Shown here: piece after piece, positions 17,997 to 24,435 of the stretch
Layout of the letters: every line of letters begins with the position of its first letter
Numbering within the stretch: position 1 is the first letter of the stretch
NCBI GenBank assembly: GCA_013178415.1
Contig: JABLXA010000022.1
Span: 1 to 35,000 of the forward strand
Source of the DNA: Bacillota bacterium
GTDB taxonomy: Bacteria > Bacillota > SHA-98 > Ch115
Reading direction: 5' to 3'
DNA length: 35,000 nucleotides
The notes under the pieces: model-generated
The model's input: the letters and a program-made list of their open reading frames with translations, nothing else
Database searches by the model: none
What the model was told of the DNA's origin: nothing
Program-made: the position numbers and the translations under genes

Positions 17997-18590
17997 TCAG
18001 AATAGCTTTACTATCCCCAACATGATGAGAATTCCCCCGGGAAGGAAGGTTGCCGTGGAGGATAGCCTCCGGGCGAGATAAACCCTCCCGGTGAGTGTTC
18101 CAAGGAAAACCAAAACGAATTGGATGGCGCCCACAACAAGGGGGGCGAGATGGCTCCAATATCCTATTACTCCGGCTCCGATGCCAGCGCCGAATGCATC
18201 CATGGCGAGGGCAATCCCAAGGGGAAGGGCCTCAGCCACACTGATGGCTCCCGAATGGTCAACATCAGCCTTTTCTGGCATCTTGAGGAGGTGAATTATG
18301 TGTCTCTTGGGGACCTGCCGGTCCCTTTCCTGTCGTCCATTCAGAATGGCCAATAATCCAAGGATGATGAGTATCCCGCCCCCGAGGATTCGCGATGCGC
18401 GCTGGCCAATGTATATACCTATGTGTCGCCCGAGTGACATCGAGATGTAGATCATGAGAGCTGATGCCGCATTCATGATCAGGAGAGATAAGAGTGGGAT
18501 TTTTATGCCCCGCATCCCATAGACGACTCCCACGACGAATCCATCGATGCTTACTGCGAAAGCTAATAATAGAATGCCCAGGGATTGCAT
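17997..18590 (-). CDS. ytaF: Sporulation membrane protein YtaF (MntP-like family)
   Basis: This is a polytopic membrane protein related to the manganese exporter MntP and conserved in spore formers. It has two homologous hydrophobic halves: one opens LLLAFAVSIDGFVVGVVYGMRGI, the second LPLGIALAMDAFGAGIGAGVIGY. They carry the paired Asp residues in the membrane helices. Between them is the family's DVDHSGAISVAEAL loop, which resembles a calcium-binding motif. About 197 residues from ATG 18588-18590, with GGAGG 7 bases upstream. The transport substrate is not established; a role in sporulation is known only from family naming. Confidence 0.85.
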   Translation of the reverse strand: MQSLGILLLAFAVSIDGFVVGVVYGMRGIKIPLLSLLIMNAASALMIYISMSLGRHIGIYIGQRASRILGGGILIILGLLAILNGRQERDRQVPKRHIIHLLKMPEKADVDHSGAISVAEALPLGIALAMDAFGAGIGAGVIGYWSHLAPLVVGAIQFVLVFLGTLTGRVYLARRLSSTATFLPGGILIMLGIVKLF

Positions 18591-18722
18591 GCCATTGCCT
18601 CCTTTGGACGGTTTCATGGTTATATAGATTGCCGGGTGCTACTTTCTTAGGTTATGGCAAAAGGGCTCGAAGGGTGATTAGGGATTGGCAGGAGGGTGCT
18701 ATGTAGAATTGAAGTGTGGGCA

Positions 18723-18828: not shown

Positions 18829-19749
18829 ATGGTGGAACTTGCCATTGTGATAGTGACATATCAAACCCGAGAACTCCTGAGGAAATGTCTTGACAGTCTC
18901 AGGATGGAACGAGATGCTCTTTCTGGTGTGTGGAAGATTATCGTCGTGGATAATGCTTCCACAGATGGCACTGTAGATATGCTAAAAAAGGACTTCCCGG
19001 ATGTTGATGTAATCGCAAATTCCGATAACCTCGGCCCTGCCAGAGCTTTTAACATGGGCATCGCAGAAGCTGTGAGGGTTTCGGATCTTATCATTGTAAT
19101 GAACAGTGATGTGATAGCACTTCCCGGAACTATTCGCGAAATGATCTCTTTCATGGAGGAAAATCCGGATGTAGATGGGGTCTCCTGCCCACTTTTCTAT
19201 CCCGATATGACCCCGCAGAAGACCAGAACTCATATAATGAGGCTTCTTCCTGTGAAGAAAAATCGGCCATTTCGTGAAGATTTCGTAGGGACGACCTTTG
19301 CGATGATCAGGAGCAGAGCCTTTCACAAGGTCGGTGGATATGACGAACATTATTATTTCTATAATGAGGATCTTGACTGGGCCGAGAGGGCGAGACGCGC
19401 AGGCTGCAATTTCTTTCACCTGCCTGAAATCGGAGTAATACATGCTCTCGGACAAGGGCGGAAGCAGAATATCCCAAAGATTATAGGTGAACTATACAAG
19501 AGTAATATCTATTATTACAAGAGGCATTATCCAAATCTTGCGCGCATTGCCTTGTTGGCGCTGAGGTTTGAAATCTGGTTTAGAATCCGCGCTCTAAGGA
19601 AAGAGCTCGCTGCGGCTTCAGATGAAAGGAGGGCGTCCGAAATACGCTCTGCCTTAGAGGTCTACACAAGAGCGCGGGCTAAAATGGAAGAGGAATACAT
19701 CAAACCATGTGAGCCGGAGATACCAGAATTTGCTTATGACGGCGCATGA
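18829..19749 (+). CDS. Family 2 glycosyltransferase (rhamnosyltransferase-like)
   Basis: A GT-A enzyme transferring a nucleotide-activated sugar to a glycan or lipid carrier. It shows the GT2 opening LAIVIVTYQTRELLRKCLDSL, the nucleotide-binding VVDNASTDGTVDML near 40, an LGPARAFNMGI motif, the metal-binding region IVMNSDV (a DxD equivalent) near 92 and the acceptor-side NEDLDWAERARRAG near 180. There are no membrane segments. A basic helical tail follows (about residues 225-295). The ATG at 18829 has GAGGGG about 10 bases upstream. It lies next to polymerase/ligase and LpxB-like genes on the opposite strand, suggesting surface-glycan synthesis. Confidence 0.88.
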   Translation: MVELAIVIVTYQTRELLRKCLDSLRMERDALSGVWKIIVVDNASTDGTVDMLKKDFPDVDVIANSDNLGPARAFNMGIAEAVRVSDLIIVMNSDVIALPGTIREMISFMEENPDVDGVSCPLFYPDMTPQKTRTHIMRLLPVKKNRPFREDFVGTTFAMIRSRAFHKVGGYDEHYYFYNEDLDWAERARRAGCNFFHLPEIGVIHALGQGRKQNIPKIIGELYKSNIYYYKRHYPNLARIALLALRFEIWFRIRALRKELAAASDERRASEIRSALEVYTRARAKMEEEYIKPCEPEIPEFAYDGA

Positions 19750-19825: not shown

Positions 19826-21076
19826 CTACCTGGCGGCAGCCATCTCCCTCAAAGCTCCGTAGATGATGAAGAAGAGGGGAGCCATATCGATGGAATAGAC
19901 AACTATATCGACCTGCAGGTGCACCAGCAGCGCTATGAAGAGCACGATTCCAACCCAGCCTTGATGACTGTGCCGCGCGGATTTCGCAGCTTTGACCCCA
20001 TTGATCAGTCCGGCGGCGATGACCCACAGGAAAAGGGCAAGGCCGGGTAGCCCGGTGCTTGCGCCCATCTCGAGAAGAATATTATGTGCGAATGGCTGTG
20101 GGTCGTGCATGAATTCGGGATGAGGGTATTTCACATAGATTGAACGGAAATTGTTTACTCCGATGCCTACAAGCGGATTATCCCTGATCATCATGGCGGC
20201 CGTGCGCCAGATTTCTATCCGGTCCTTGAATGAAGAGCCGGGATTGATGAGCGGAAGATAGCGTCCTTTCAGCGGCGGGTAAAATGCCACTGATAATGCA
20301 AGCATTCCGGCCAGGATGGCAATGATGACGGCGAATCGTTTATTGCGGGCGGCTTGGATGACAAGCCCCGCAGCCAGGGCGAGGAGAGCCCCTCTGGACT
20401 GAGTTGCCATGAGAGCGAGAAATTCCAGCAATATGAGGATTCCAAGGCCGAGCTTTTGAGGTGTCCTTGCTTTGCTCATGCAGCCGCTGGCCAGGAGTAT
20501 GGCCAGGGCGAAGAGCGTACCAGCGGCATTGCAGCCAGCAAAGGGTAGCTCTGCTCTTATATACCACCGGTTCATCATCATGTTGGGGATGAACCTCCAT
20601 AATGCATATAGCGCGCCAATGGCCGATCCGGCAAGAAAAGCCGTCAGGATGCGCGGGCCTGCTTTGGCATTCCCGTTTTCTTGTGAATCATGATAGAATA
20701 TCTTATTGACTGCCCATAGCGAGATCCACCCTGTCAGGATGAGGCCGAACGTGCTTCCAAAAGCATTGTCACGCTTGTAGGCAAAAATTGACGAAAATAA
20801 CATCCATGTGGCAAGGATTGAGAGAGGATCCAGCCTCGAGAACGGCTGAAAACCCCGCGACCCGAGCCGGTAGTTCCACCTGCTTGCCAGGAGATCATGA
20901 AAAGCGAATGGTAAGAGGACTAACTGGGCTATGACCGTGTGGCCGAGGGCAAGTCCAAAGGCGCCCAGGTACCATGCGGCCATCTCAAGATATCTGCCGG
21001 ATGATCGGATCCATTTTCCTATTCTTACGATATTTGTAGCTGGTTCAGATTTTACTGCGTCTAGATCCAGGTTCAA
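19826..21076 (-). CDS. O-antigen ligase / polymerase-like membrane protein
   Basis: WaaL/Wzy/TuaE-type proteins join or polymerise lipid-linked glycans outside the membrane. About ten hydrophobic segments are visible, with a conserved Wzy_C-type block: QSRGALLALAAGLVIQ, a large loop with RIEIWRTAAMMIRDNPLVGIGVNNFRSIY, then PHPEFMHDPQPFAHNILLEMGASTGLPGL, all family hallmarks. I prefer TTG 21076, just after the preceding TAG, because GGAGGGGGG lies about 8 bases upstream. An ATG at 21100 inside the upstream gene lacks such a site. It is translationally linked to the LpxB-like gene. The acceptor is unknown. Confidence 0.85.
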   Translation of the reverse strand: MNLDLDAVKSEPATNIVRIGKWIRSSGRYLEMAAWYLGAFGLALGHTVIAQLVLLPFAFHDLLASRWNYRLGSRGFQPFSRLDPLSILATWMLFSSIFAYKRDNAFGSTFGLILTGWISLWAVNKIFYHDSQENGNAKAGPRILTAFLAGSAIGALYALWRFIPNMMMNRWYIRAELPFAGCNAAGTLFALAILLASGCMSKARTPQKLGLGILILLEFLALMATQSRGALLALAAGLVIQAARNKRFAVIIAILAGMLALSVAFYPPLKGRYLPLINPGSSFKDRIEIWRTAAMMIRDNPLVGIGVNNFRSIYVKYPHPEFMHDPQPFAHNILLEMGASTGLPGLALFLWVIAAGLINGVKAAKSARHSHQGWVGIVLFIALLVHLQVDIVVYSIDMAPLFFIIYGALREMAAAR

Positions 21077-21077
21077 A

Positions 21078-22331
21078 CTATAGGCCCCCCTCCAGTACAT
21101 CTACAATTTCTGCTGCTATCCTATGACACGAGCCCTTGCCTTCCAATAGCCGGCGGCCTTCACGGCTCATGGCTTCTCTGCGTTGGGGATCGAGCAAAAG
21201 CCCCTCAATATTCCTCATAATCTCTCCGGGATCACGGCGCACCACACTCAATGCTTCCCCGAGAAGTTTCTTTTGTTTGCGGACGAATCTCTCGGTGATT
21301 TGAGGGCCATCCCCGGGAAAAATGATGATCGGGCATCCCATACCCGCGGCTTGCTCATTTCCTGTTCCGGACAGGCCTATTACTACTGCAGATGTCGCAA
21401 GTATCTCGCCGAATAGATTAGTAGCCATGACAATCTTGGAGCCGCCCTCGAGAGCATATTCCACCGCCCTGTGTGGCTTTTGCCATGATGAGTTTGCGAC
21501 GGGCGCCCCCGAGGTGTTGAGAGATTGGCTGGCTATATCCAGGACCAAATCGAAATCAAGGGTATTCGCCAGAGCAAACGCAAAAGTAATTGGCTTACGG
21601 AATCTCATGGCGAATTCCTTCAAAACCGGGAGCAGGAACTGTATGTGAGAATAGGCCTCTTCCCGGCTTCCCGGGAGAATCCCGATCACAGTTTCTGATT
21701 CCAGAAAATCCGGTATGGTAGTTGACACCTCGAGACAATCCATCATGGGGTTCCCCACATAGGAGGCAGGAACACCCTCCCTATTTAGGGCATCTCGGGT
21801 CTCAGGATCTCTCACAAATACCTTCTTGCACCACTTGCGCATTATATTGCATTCGAGTCTGCTATAGGGATTTCGTCCGTCCTTATAGCGCGCAGATCTC
21901 GCTACTCCCACGAAGACCATGGGTGTCCTGAGGGCGAGGCTATTAAAGAACAGTGGTACATTGTCTCCCACGCCTATCGCCAGGGCAAACCGGGAACGCA
22001 TGGATCTCAAGGATGCCAGCTGCTTTATGGTAAGCCCCACAAGTCCTGAGGCAACATCTCTCACTATATAACCTAAGCTCTGGTAGAGAAAACCTCCGCT
22101 TGGCATTTCACGGGTTGGCCCTGCTATTGCAAAACCATTCTTGGAATATGAGGTTCCCGTCCCTACGATAGGAAAAGCCTCTATCGACAGCTGAGGCGCA
22201 AATTCCCTCAAGGCCAGAGCGATATGAACTCCGACGGTATCTTCGCCATGGCCATTGCTCATGAATAAGACATGCTTCAATTGGTTAAAATGCCTCCGAT
22301 CTTGGCCGGGACTAGTTAACACCTTATGCAT
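21078..22331 (-). CDS. LpxB-related glycosyltransferase-fold protein
   Basis: The protein resembles lipid-A-disaccharide synthase (GT-B fold) and the family of LpxB-related proteins of about 400 residues found outside typical lipid A makers. Visible are the opening HVLFMSNGHGEDTVGVHIALAL, IGVGDNVPLFFN near 130, VGVARSARYKDGRNP, a central VIGILPGSREEAYSHI that binds nucleotide sugar in LpxB, and GLSGTGNEQAAGMGCPIIIFPGDGPQ near 330. No membrane segment is seen. The start is uncertain: ATG 22331 has no ribosome binding site, and a TTG at 22280 with AGG upstream is an alternative. It probably glycosylates a lipid acceptor. Confidence 0.78.
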   Translation of the reverse strand: MHKVLTSPGQDRRHFNQLKHVLFMSNGHGEDTVGVHIALALREFAPQLSIEAFPIVGTGTSYSKNGFAIAGPTREMPSGGFLYQSLGYIVRDVASGLVGLTIKQLASLRSMRSRFALAIGVGDNVPLFFNSLALRTPMVFVGVARSARYKDGRNPYSRLECNIMRKWCKKVFVRDPETRDALNREGVPASYVGNPMMDCLEVSTTIPDFLESETVIGILPGSREEAYSHIQFLLPVLKEFAMRFRKPITFAFALANTLDFDLVLDIASQSLNTSGAPVANSSWQKPHRAVEYALEGGSKIVMATNLFGEILATSAVVIGLSGTGNEQAAGMGCPIIIFPGDGPQITERFVRKQKKLLGEALSVVRRDPGEIMRNIEGLLLDPQRREAMSREGRRLLEGKGSCHRIAAEIVDVLEGGL

Positions 22332-22482
22332 CACACGGTATTCTTTCTATATAAGGGGAATGAAATCCTGCCATAACACCGATGGCACAGAAGTAGCGTC
22401 CGAGATGAGGGCGAAAATCTCGCCACTCCAACGCGAGAGATGGCAGCGGCTTATTTTTCAGGGTGGAGGAATTCGTTATATC

Positions 22483-22599: not shown

Positions 22600-23454
22600 A
22601 TGGGCCATGGAAGAAGGATTTCCCCATATGGGAAAAATGTTTTGATTACCGGAGCATCATCAGGTATTGGAGCAGCTACTGCCATACTTTTAGCGCGTGA
22701 AGGGTTTTCCGTCTGGGGCACCATACGGGATCGCGGGAGAGTCCCGGGCCTGCCCGAAGAATTGCAGCGTCTTGTACGATTCGTGGAGATGGATGTCACT
22801 GAGCAGACTTCGGTGGATAAGGGTATAGCTGAGGTCATGAGCCAGGCCGGCCATATCGACATTTTGATCAACAATGCAGGTTTTGCTATCTACGGGCCCA
22901 TCGAGGAAGTTCCAATGGAGCTTGCTATAGCCCAATTCGAGACCAATGTCTTTGGGGTTCTTCGCGTAACCCAGGCGGTGGTCCCGTTCATGCGGGAAAG
23001 ACGCAGAGGCCTTATCATCAATATGAGTTCTCTGGCAGGGAAACTAGTGATTCCCTTCCAGGCCCATTATTCAGCAACCAAACACGCCATAGAGGCCCTT
23101 TCCGAGGGACTCAGGCAGGAACTCAGACCATTCAACGTCAAAGTGGCCATCATTGAGCCGGGCGATATCAAGACTAATTTCAATAATGCTACCAGGTTTG
23201 GACACAAAAAGAACTCTCCATATGAAAGATGGACCGCCGCCAGCTGGCATACCATTGATGTCAATCTACAAAAGGCCCCGGATCCGGAAGTGGTTGCCCG
23301 CAAAATCCTGGCCGTTGCGCGGAAAGCAAATCCCGCCACACGATATCCGGCCGGCGATTTCATATCCACGAAATTCCCGTTTCTGGCCCGGTTTATGCCA
23401 GACAGCCTTCGCGAGCTCGCTATACGGATCTTTTATGGCATCAACTTCCGGTAG
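22600..23454 (+). CDS. Short-chain dehydrogenase/reductase
   Basis: An NAD(P)-dependent oxidoreductase with a Rossmann fold. It shows the cofactor motif TGASSGIGAA, then NNAGFAIYGP, the catalytic serine in NMSSLAGKL and the YSATK (Tyr-x3-Lys) pair, followed by IEPGDIKTNF. The C-terminus carries an extended tail (FISTKFPFLARFMPDSL) seen in SDRs related to retinol or ketosphinganine-type reductases. ATG 22600 is my choice; a TTG at 22567 would add 11 residues, and neither has a strong ribosome binding site. The gene overlaps the convergent DUF1638 gene by 14 bp. The substrate is unknown. Confidence 0.88.
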   Translation: MGHGRRISPYGKNVLITGASSGIGAATAILLAREGFSVWGTIRDRGRVPGLPEELQRLVRFVEMDVTEQTSVDKGIAEVMSQAGHIDILINNAGFAIYGPIEEVPMELAIAQFETNVFGVLRVTQAVVPFMRERRRGLIINMSSLAGKLVIPFQAHYSATKHAIEALSEGLRQELRPFNVKVAIIEPGDIKTNFNNATRFGHKKNSPYERWTAASWHTIDVNLQKAPDPEVVARKILAVARKANPATRYPAGDFISTKFPFLARFMPDSLRELAIRIFYGINFR

Positions 23455-24280
23455 GCCCATCCGGTGGAATGGCGGATTCCGGGCAATCATGCCGCGCTTT
23501 CATGGGGCATTCCGCTTCTTTGCGTTGCGAACAGATGATCATGTCATCATAGCTTGGATGTATCTCCTCGCCCGGAGGCGCCAGGAGAACTTCATTACCG
23601 AGAAATCTCCCGTTTATGATGTTCTCCAGGAGTCCTCTATCGCCCTTTAACTCATCATATTGCCATCCGAGGAATTTGGCGCATTGTTTCGTATAGTCTC
23701 TATAGAAAGAAGATCTTGGCAGTCCCCAGTCGATATAGGCGGCGTAATGATAGCTCTTGAACCAGGCTTGTTCCATTTCCATGAGATAATTGGCATTGTC
23801 TTCCCCATATTTCTTGACATAGTGATCATAGATTCTGCGATAGCGTTCTTCTCCCGGTTGGAGTGTCCTTTCGATCCACCCGGCAGAGTACCAGTAGATA
23901 CCCTTGTGTGAGTCAAAGTATTCTCTATATCTCTCTTTAGAACCCAGAAGGATGGTGATGCAATCATGGGCCCTGGGGATAACGAGCGGGATCCTAGCGC
24001 TGGAAAGCCCCGCGATCCCGTTGGAGCATAATCCATACCCAAGCACTATGAAGTCATAGTCAAACAGGCTGAAATCGTCGAGACTGGTCTTTTCTAGATA
24101 CCTCAGGTGAAAACCTTTATTGGCGAGGTCAATTTGCTCCTGTAACGTTCTCCTGAGGAGGTCAGGCTCGTTATGGAGTCCTTGAGGCAAGAATGTCACA
24201 TCCACGAAATGTTCCGACTGGCTGCTTATCATTGATATCTCACGGTTTAAGACATCGCAGGCAATGACTTTTATATTCAT
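23441..24280 (-). CDS. DUF1638-family protein
   Basis: The sequence starts MNIKVIACDVLNREI and contains the DUF1638 core: a conserved FDYDFIVLGYGLCSNGIAGL block, the IPLVIPRAHDCITILLGSKERYREYF block, and a YWYSAGWIER segment. These are typical of this soluble family, found in anaerobes, often near corrinoid or methyltransferase genes. The conserved Cys and His (GLCSNG, RAHDC) could bind a metal; that is inference. There is no methyltransferase gene nearby. The start ATG 24278-24280 is chosen from the family opening; a TTG five codons upstream is closer to a GAGG motif. The tail (CPMKARHDCPESAIPPDGPTGS) carries two extra cysteines and overlaps the SDR gene. Confidence 0.75.
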   Translation of the reverse strand: MNIKVIACDVLNREISMISSQSEHFVDVTFLPQGLHNEPDLLRRTLQEQIDLANKGFHLRYLEKTSLDDFSLFDYDFIVLGYGLCSNGIAGLSSARIPLVIPRAHDCITILLGSKERYREYFDSHKGIYWYSAGWIERTLQPGEERYRRIYDHYVKKYGEDNANYLMEMEQAWFKSYHYAAYIDWGLPRSSFYRDYTKQCAKFLGWQYDELKGDRGLLENIINGRFLGNEVLLAPPGEEIHPSYDDMIICSQRKEAECPMKARHDCPESAIPPDGPTGS

Positions 24281-24435
24281 AGGATGTGGCGTCAATATCC
24301 TCGAAGAAGGAAAGCGCCTCTACCCTCCCTTTTTATCGAATCACTTTGAGATGAGCTAACCATAAGTATATCATAGAAAATGCCCTGGGGGGTTCCGCAT
24401 ATTGGATTGTTCTCCAATAAATATCTCGTCTGCTA

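Follow-up and report, generated by a model that had tools for sequence, protein, structure and literature searches.

A stretch of 35,000 nucleotides from the assembly of a Bacillota bacterium (GCA_013178415.1, contig JABLXA010000022.1, positions 1 to 35,000; hereafter the window) raises the question of what an LpxB-like glycosyltransferase and an O-antigen-ligase-like membrane protein, encoded next to each other, accomplish in an organism that had been presumed to be Gram-positive. The glycosyltransferase gene (21078-22334, minus strand; 418 amino acids) belongs to the family TIGR03492, and its partner (19826-21100, minus strand; 424 amino acids) encodes a protein with a Wzy_C domain (PF04932). 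We put the probability at roughly 0.55 that this pair takes part in the assembly of lipopolysaccharide (LPS) in a diderm Bacillota that lacks 3-deoxy-D-manno-oct-2-ulosonic acid (Kdo), in which TIGR03492 and a second LpxB-like protein, LpxB2, would stand in for the steps of WaaA and LpxK, and the window pair would act as core-sugar transferase and ligase.

Both open reading frames (ORFs) of the linked pair were found where the preliminary description had placed them, and both exceed the cut-offs of their families. The glycosyltransferase reaches 314.1 bits against a curated NCBIfam cut-off of 219.2 and covers positions 1-395 of the 396 of the TIGR03492 profile, while the Wzy_C protein reaches 76.4 bits (Pfam cut-off 31.7). 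They are the single TIGR03492 match over the cut-off and the single PF04932 match in the genome. The Wzy_C ORF starts with an ATG at 21100, overlapping the end of the upstream TIGR03492 gene by 23 nt, or alternatively with an in-frame TTG at 21076, which is preceded by a GGAGG-like stretch and lies just past the TIGR03492 stop codon; the two genes are thus either overlapping or directly adjacent.

What kind of enzyme TIGR03492 represents was addressed by profile comparison. The TIGR03492 profile aligns with LpxB over 351 columns, nearly its full length (hhalign 99.5%, E = 4e-22), and both alignments keep the LPGSR and GTxxxE motifs, which suggests that the family uses a nucleotide-sugar donor. 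With WaaA, also known as KdtA (PF04413), there is no useful sequence relationship (hhalign 16%), and a WaaA homologue was ruled out on this basis. Against solved structures, the C-terminal part of the profile matched UDP-N-acetylglucosamine (UDP-GlcNAc) 2-epimerases (E = 3e-5), and its middle region matched Escherichia coli LpxB (E = 0.003). The preliminary description had considered that the protein might align better with an unrelated GT-B family; as far as compared this was not the case, the epimerase-like C-terminal part notwithstanding. Among Pfam families, LpxB (PF02684) gave the lowest E-value for the window protein (0.011), nearly equalled by Glyco_trans_1_2 (0.019).

These similarities would also fit a spare lipid A disaccharide synthase, that is, an LpxB isozyme. 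A Foldseek search returned LpxB first as well (E = 3.2e-9, template modelling score 0.31), a weak result obtained with a poor model, as structures predicted from two-sequence input had a mean predicted local distance difference test (pLDDT) score of only 50.4 for the glycosyltransferase and 44.1 for the Wzy_C protein. Yet the host encodes a true LpxB elsewhere (TIGR00215, 314 bits), the PF02684 score of the window protein (15.1 bits) is under the cut-off of 22.6, and TIGR00215 is absent among its NCBIfam matches at E 0.1, so that it is not a member of LpxB. In a tree of 80 proteins TIGR03492, LpxB2 and LpxB formed separate groups with 99-100 support each (100/100 for TIGR03492). We therefore rejected the isozyme on cut-offs and profile comparison and consider it very improbable. 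The LpxB2 profile is closer to LpxB than TIGR03492 is (hhalign 100%, E = 2.5e-41).

The host assembly comprises 3.57 Mb in 57 contigs, with the window on contig C22, and we examined 60 kb around the LpxC gene on contig C3 for LPS genes. LpxC scored 282 bits; LpxA, FabZ and the true LpxB exceed the curated NCBIfam cut-offs, and LptC-, LptA-, LptF/G-type and SLH domains exceed those of Pfam. On the LptD side only LptA/LptD_N-type domains were seen. In the SLH protein, the end resembling a porin reached 20.8 bits (cut-off 23.7). LpxI-like (135.6 versus 400 bits) and MsbA-like (538.5 versus 602 bits) proteins are under their cut-offs, and an LptB-like ORF is named from its position alone. With lpxC, lpxA, lpxB and Lpt transport genes the genome carries the set by which we recognised LPS-diderm Bacillota, and judged by gene content the host is an LPS-type diderm. 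The LPS cluster thus rules out an ordinary Gram-positive bacterium with some unusual glycan pathway and overturns the presumption of a Gram-positive host; the double-membrane relative of the clostridia that the preliminary description had offered instead is supported.

The Kdo2-lipid A pathway, as defined by LpxK, WaaA and KdsB, is not encoded: LpxK and WaaA (PF04413) found no match in the host genome, and no KdsB exceeded the cut-off (best 30.3 versus 155.2 bits). Of the lpx genes singled out earlier, lpxA and lpxC are hence present and lpxK is absent. LpxB2 is encoded between lpxB and the msbA-like gene (C3:139791-141068; L053:14791-16068); it reaches 69 bits for TIGR00215 (cut-off 190) and is assigned to LpxB by Pfam. 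The window pair lies outside this cluster.

How these genes are distributed was analysed in 299 genomes of the phylum, each at least 90% complete, with the searches for LpxK, KdsB and LpxB2 covering the 64 genomes that contain LpxC. TIGR03492 was present in 37 genomes (36 over the cut-off and G009 in two pieces on two contigs), all of them with LpxC. The WaaA domain was over the cut-off in 25 genomes, 24 of which were strong matches, all with LpxC; the 25th, in G306, scores weakly, is interrupted by three stops and comes from a genome lacking LpxC; it was dropped before counting, as were short TIGR03492 pieces in G082:C50 and G015:C32. The two enzymes co-occur in none of the 64 genomes: 37 contain TIGR03492, 24 WaaA and three neither. 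In these three (G097, G154 and G223), the 20 kb read around the LpxC-like gene contain nothing else from the LPS reference set, cross-matches of ATP-binding cassette (ABC) proteins apart. With them left out, Fisher's test of the exclusion gives 1.7e-17 for 61 genomes, uncorrected for relatedness. LpxK exceeded the cut-off in 23 of the 64 genomes, namely all WaaA genomes except G234, and in 0 of the 37 with TIGR03492; a trace below the cut-off was seen in G097. KdsB was over the cut-off in 25 genomes, 23 with WaaA and two with TIGR03492, and is represented in the WaaA genome G078 by two pieces below the cut-off. LpxB2, searched with an alignment (A1) made from TIGR03492 genomes, was strong in 37 of the 64, a set identical to the genomes with TIGR03492; five WaaA genomes gave 74-80 bits, which is within the range of true-LpxB cross-matches.

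Two side observations concern LpxC itself. The lone LpxC-like genes on G097:C18, G154:C17 and G223:C6 (L131, L132 and L133) have flanking ORFs that are alike in length in all three genomes, judged by length alone, and a lone lpxC in Desulfotomaculum acetoxidans is mentioned in the part of PMC11448272 consulted. In the single-contig genome G153, LpxC is split over two frames with a stop (C1:2530119-2530926, in L127).

At a finer scale, we analysed the 16 genomes of family f22, eight of them new beyond the phylum sample; TIGR03492 was searched, the prediction recorded, and WaaA searched afterwards. Nine genomes contained only TIGR03492, five only WaaA, two neither (G309 and G312) and none both (p = 0.0048 for the 16 genomes). 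The prediction was borne out in seven of the eight new genomes, with WaaA in G307, G308 and G313 and none in G309, G310, G311 and G314. Both kinds of LPS gene set occur even within one genus of this family (g24), where msbA is neighboured by WaaA and other genes in one kind and by TIGR03492 in the other. That both types are found within a single family and even a single genus, yet never together in a genome, speaks against the idea that TIGR03492 serves LPS assembly at some step other than the first core sugar and that its exclusion of WaaA reflects two inherited cluster types differing in many genes, as does the same combination in Synechococcus, a member of another phylum. Two points fit this idea: LpxK, KdsB and LpxB2 switch along with TIGR03492, and the counts are uncorrected for relatedness. 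On balance we regard it as improbable.

To place the window gene within its family, we read the regions around 48 TIGR03492 copies from genomes other than that of the host (41 from the phylum sample and seven from relatives and f22), using strict match limits for the LPS-cluster count, since MsbA and LptB cross-match there. We define type I by a TAKSxYIxxH loop together with a position in the LPS cluster. Five of the 48 copies are of a second type, type II. Among the other 43, a TAKSxYIxxH-like loop was present in 41, the exceptions being G252 (TAKSELLRGH) and the G009 piece, in which the region is missing; both adjoin Lpt genes. Likewise, 41 of the 43 type I copies lie in the LPS cluster: 40 have MsbA or an Lpt gene within 2.5 kb, and that of G211, at a contig end, has LpxB2 at a distance of 48 bases. 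The gene order in G007 illustrates this arrangement (lpxC-fabZ-lpxA-lpxI-lpxB-lpxB2-msbA-X-lptC-TIGR03492-lptA-lptB-lptFG), X being in class f3 a nucleotidyltransferase with a hexapeptide tail (PF00483, as scanned in G004). The space between msbA and lptA is taken up by an LpxK block in G176, a WaaA genome. As a side observation, the nucleotidyltransferase with hexapeptide tail at L045:7315-8544, between msbA and lptC, is a possible supplier of the core-sugar donor.

The window protein has ARSARYKDGRNPYS at the position of the type I loop, four residues more than TAKSxYIxxH, and with this diverged loop and its location outside the LPS cluster it is not of type I. It falls into the type II group of six copies in five genomes (99/91 support), together with the homologue in G001, one copy in G027 (C25), one in G188 (C1:1079136) and two in G292. 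None of the six has the type I loop, in place of which they carry 4-5 extra residues, and none lies in an LPS cluster. The two G292 copies were not grouped with the others in a faster tree of 38 sequences; the group therefore rests on the 80-protein tree and the loop. All type II genomes other than the host also have a type I copy (G001 C161, G027 C75, G188 C1:388915 and G292 C1:3237779). The host is the only one of the 37 TIGR03492 genomes without type I, none having been found in the assembly, and its msbA-lptC-lptA stretch is contiguous with no type I gene inside.

A Wzy_C gene follows the type II gene on the same strand in three of the six cases, in the host, G001 and G188, the last belonging to another family; the G027 copy lies 181 bases from a contig end. 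In G001, the one genome of the same family that was searched, the whole arrangement recurs, with identities of 64% for TIGR03492, 52-56% for Wzy_C and 67% for the GT2 glycosyltransferase that adjoins the pair. Because it was found again in G001 and G188, we regard the arrangement as more than chance. A contig scan with a single-protein query gave one locus, in a relative, Bacillota bacterium isolate AS04akNAM_35 (DUSO01000031.1). Across the family the direct pair is rare: a Wzy_C gene lies within 1.5 kb of four of 42 TIGR03492 copies and within 3 kb of six of 42, so that the concern raised earlier, that the two genes seldom co-occur in other genomes, applies in part. Three type I copies of f22 (G310, G311 and G314) have a homologue of the window Wzy_C protein within 3 kb, and in 11 of the 24 WaaA genomes the distance between WaaA and a Wzy_C gene is at most 10 kb.

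The Wzy_C protein is probably a WaaL-type ligase, although the domain is shared with WaaL O-antigen ligase (PF04932) in a way that does not separate ligase from polymerase on present sequence evidence. At residues 339-353 it has an HN-x9-GxxG motif, kept in G001, which fits the WaaL ligase motif. No solved structure matched the protein by sequence.

An LPS without Kdo has a counterpart in cyanobacteria. According to the consulted parts of PMC3087551, cyanobacteria have only lpxA, lpxC, lpxD and lpxB of nine genes and an LPS without Kdo, heptose and phosphate. The Synechococcus LPS described in the parts of PMC4515613 that we used contains no Kdo; it has galacturonic acid at C4' of the distal glucosamine, the phosphate position of other bacteria, and a glucose chain at C6', their Kdo position. 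Our control Synechococcus elongatus matched LpxC and TIGR03492 and left WaaA and LpxK unmatched, as in the Bacillota with TIGR03492. TIGR03492 also matched in the controls Deinobacterium and Bacteroides, two of the three control matches being over the cut-off (which two is not stated), and KdsB matched in 11 of 14 controls, four over the cut-off (organisms not specified), so that the KdsB controls were given no weight. A literature search returned no paper under TIGR03492, COG4370 or 'lipid-A-disaccharide synthase-related protein', and neither titles, the beginnings of abstracts nor the consulted parts of PMC3087551 and PMC4515613 name an enzyme for the cyanobacterial first core sugar or for the sugar replacing the 4'-phosphate.

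Two LpxB-type transferases thus occur exactly where LpxK and WaaA are absent and, if an LPS like that of Synechococcus is assumed, this leads us to propose that two sugars are added in place of the missing groups. Type I TIGR03492, encoded near msbA, would most likely take the place of WaaA and, on the cytoplasmic side, transfer the first core sugar onto the lipid A disaccharide, while LpxB2 would probably add another sugar replacing the phosphate that LpxK adds. Which of the two enzymes performs which step is a guess. The type II protein of the window would most likely attach a core sugar which the ligase uses as its acceptor and, no type I copy having been found in the host, may fulfil both roles. 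The Wzy_C protein would most likely transfer a polymer from a lipid carrier onto this acceptor on the outer side of the inner membrane, in the manner of WaaL. Family membership, the LPS cluster, the missing genes, the exclusion and the adjacency of the pair are observed, whereas the acceptors, donors and linkages of this scheme, the absence of Kdo from the LPS itself and the role of the Wzy_C protein as ligase and not polymerase are predictions from gene content.

Several observations weigh against this proposal. The exclusion of WaaA by TIGR03492 is correlative, and the LpxB2 model, made from TIGR03492 genomes only, was applied within this phylum. In f22, G312 lacks both enzymes, contrary to the prediction; G309 lacks both as well, although its contig with LpxB2 stops beside a Wzy gene and TIGR03492 may therefore fall into an assembly gap; and G310 has a WaaA trace under the cut-off. 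G012 (C144:7753-8442) and G027 (C4:2987-3676) exceed the KdsB cut-off despite having TIGR03492 and no WaaA, which may possibly reflect capsular Kdo, contamination or another use. Two of the 43 type I copies lie outside an LPS cluster (G035 and the second copy of G188), and the two type II copies of G292 have no Wzy_C gene within 19 kb. Kdo has been reported in Microcystis and Spirulina, according to the same parts of PMC4515613. Since the window copy is of type II with a changed loop, and the other type II genomes have type I besides, the inference drawn for the family may not carry over to it, and the step of the window gene is less certain than that of the family.

Furthermore, Deinobacterium matches TIGR03492 and not LpxC, which means that a connection of the family with lipid A does not hold in all bacteria. 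This suits an alternative in which the substrate of type II is a different lipid, such as a repeat unit carried on undecaprenyl or some separate glycolipid, with the Wzy_C protein as polymerase or ligase of that glycan; the position of all six type II copies outside LPS clusters, their lack of the type I loop and the GT2 gene adjoining the pair fit it as well. The pair is, however, the sole over-cut-off TIGR03492 and the sole PF04932 of a genome with LPS genes, and without the window gene the host would be the only one of 61 genomes with neither WaaA nor TIGR03492. We consider this alternative unlikely, though more probable than the others. The most specific form of our proposal, namely that the enzymes still missing from the Kdo-less LPS pathway of diderm Bacillota are TIGR03492 and LpxB2, with TIGR03492 also serving in cyanobacteria, and that the window pair is a ligase-coupled branch replacing type I in the host, is put forward only tentatively.

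The glycosyltransferase gene noted near the pair in the preliminary description is the GT2 gene (18829-19749, plus strand; 306 amino acids; PF00535, 90.3 bits), which is convergent on the pair. Its product reaches 62 bits, under the cut-off, for the rhamnosyltransferase family TIGR01556 and is possibly a core or O-antigen glycosyltransferase. Elsewhere in the window, a YtaF sporulation membrane protein (17997-18617) exceeds the NCBIfam cut-off and a MurT-like protein (1045-2559) reaches 290 bits, under the cut-off of 800, both in a genome that carries LPS genes. No connection of the pair with BofA or MurT was observed, none having been looked for. A DUF1638 protein (23441-24295) is flanked by an SDR gene and a GNAT gene.

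For the family, the mutual exclusion of TIGR03492 and LpxB2 with LpxK and WaaA yields two candidates for the enzymes behind the first core sugar and behind the sugar that replaces the 4'-phosphate in a Kdo-less LPS. For the phylum, it suggests a split of the diderm Bacillota into a Kdo type, as in Negativicutes and Halanaerobiales, for which the consulted part of PMC5007114 gives the gene set lpxACDIBK/waaM/waaA/kdsABCD, and a type without Kdo genes, both of which are found in one genus.

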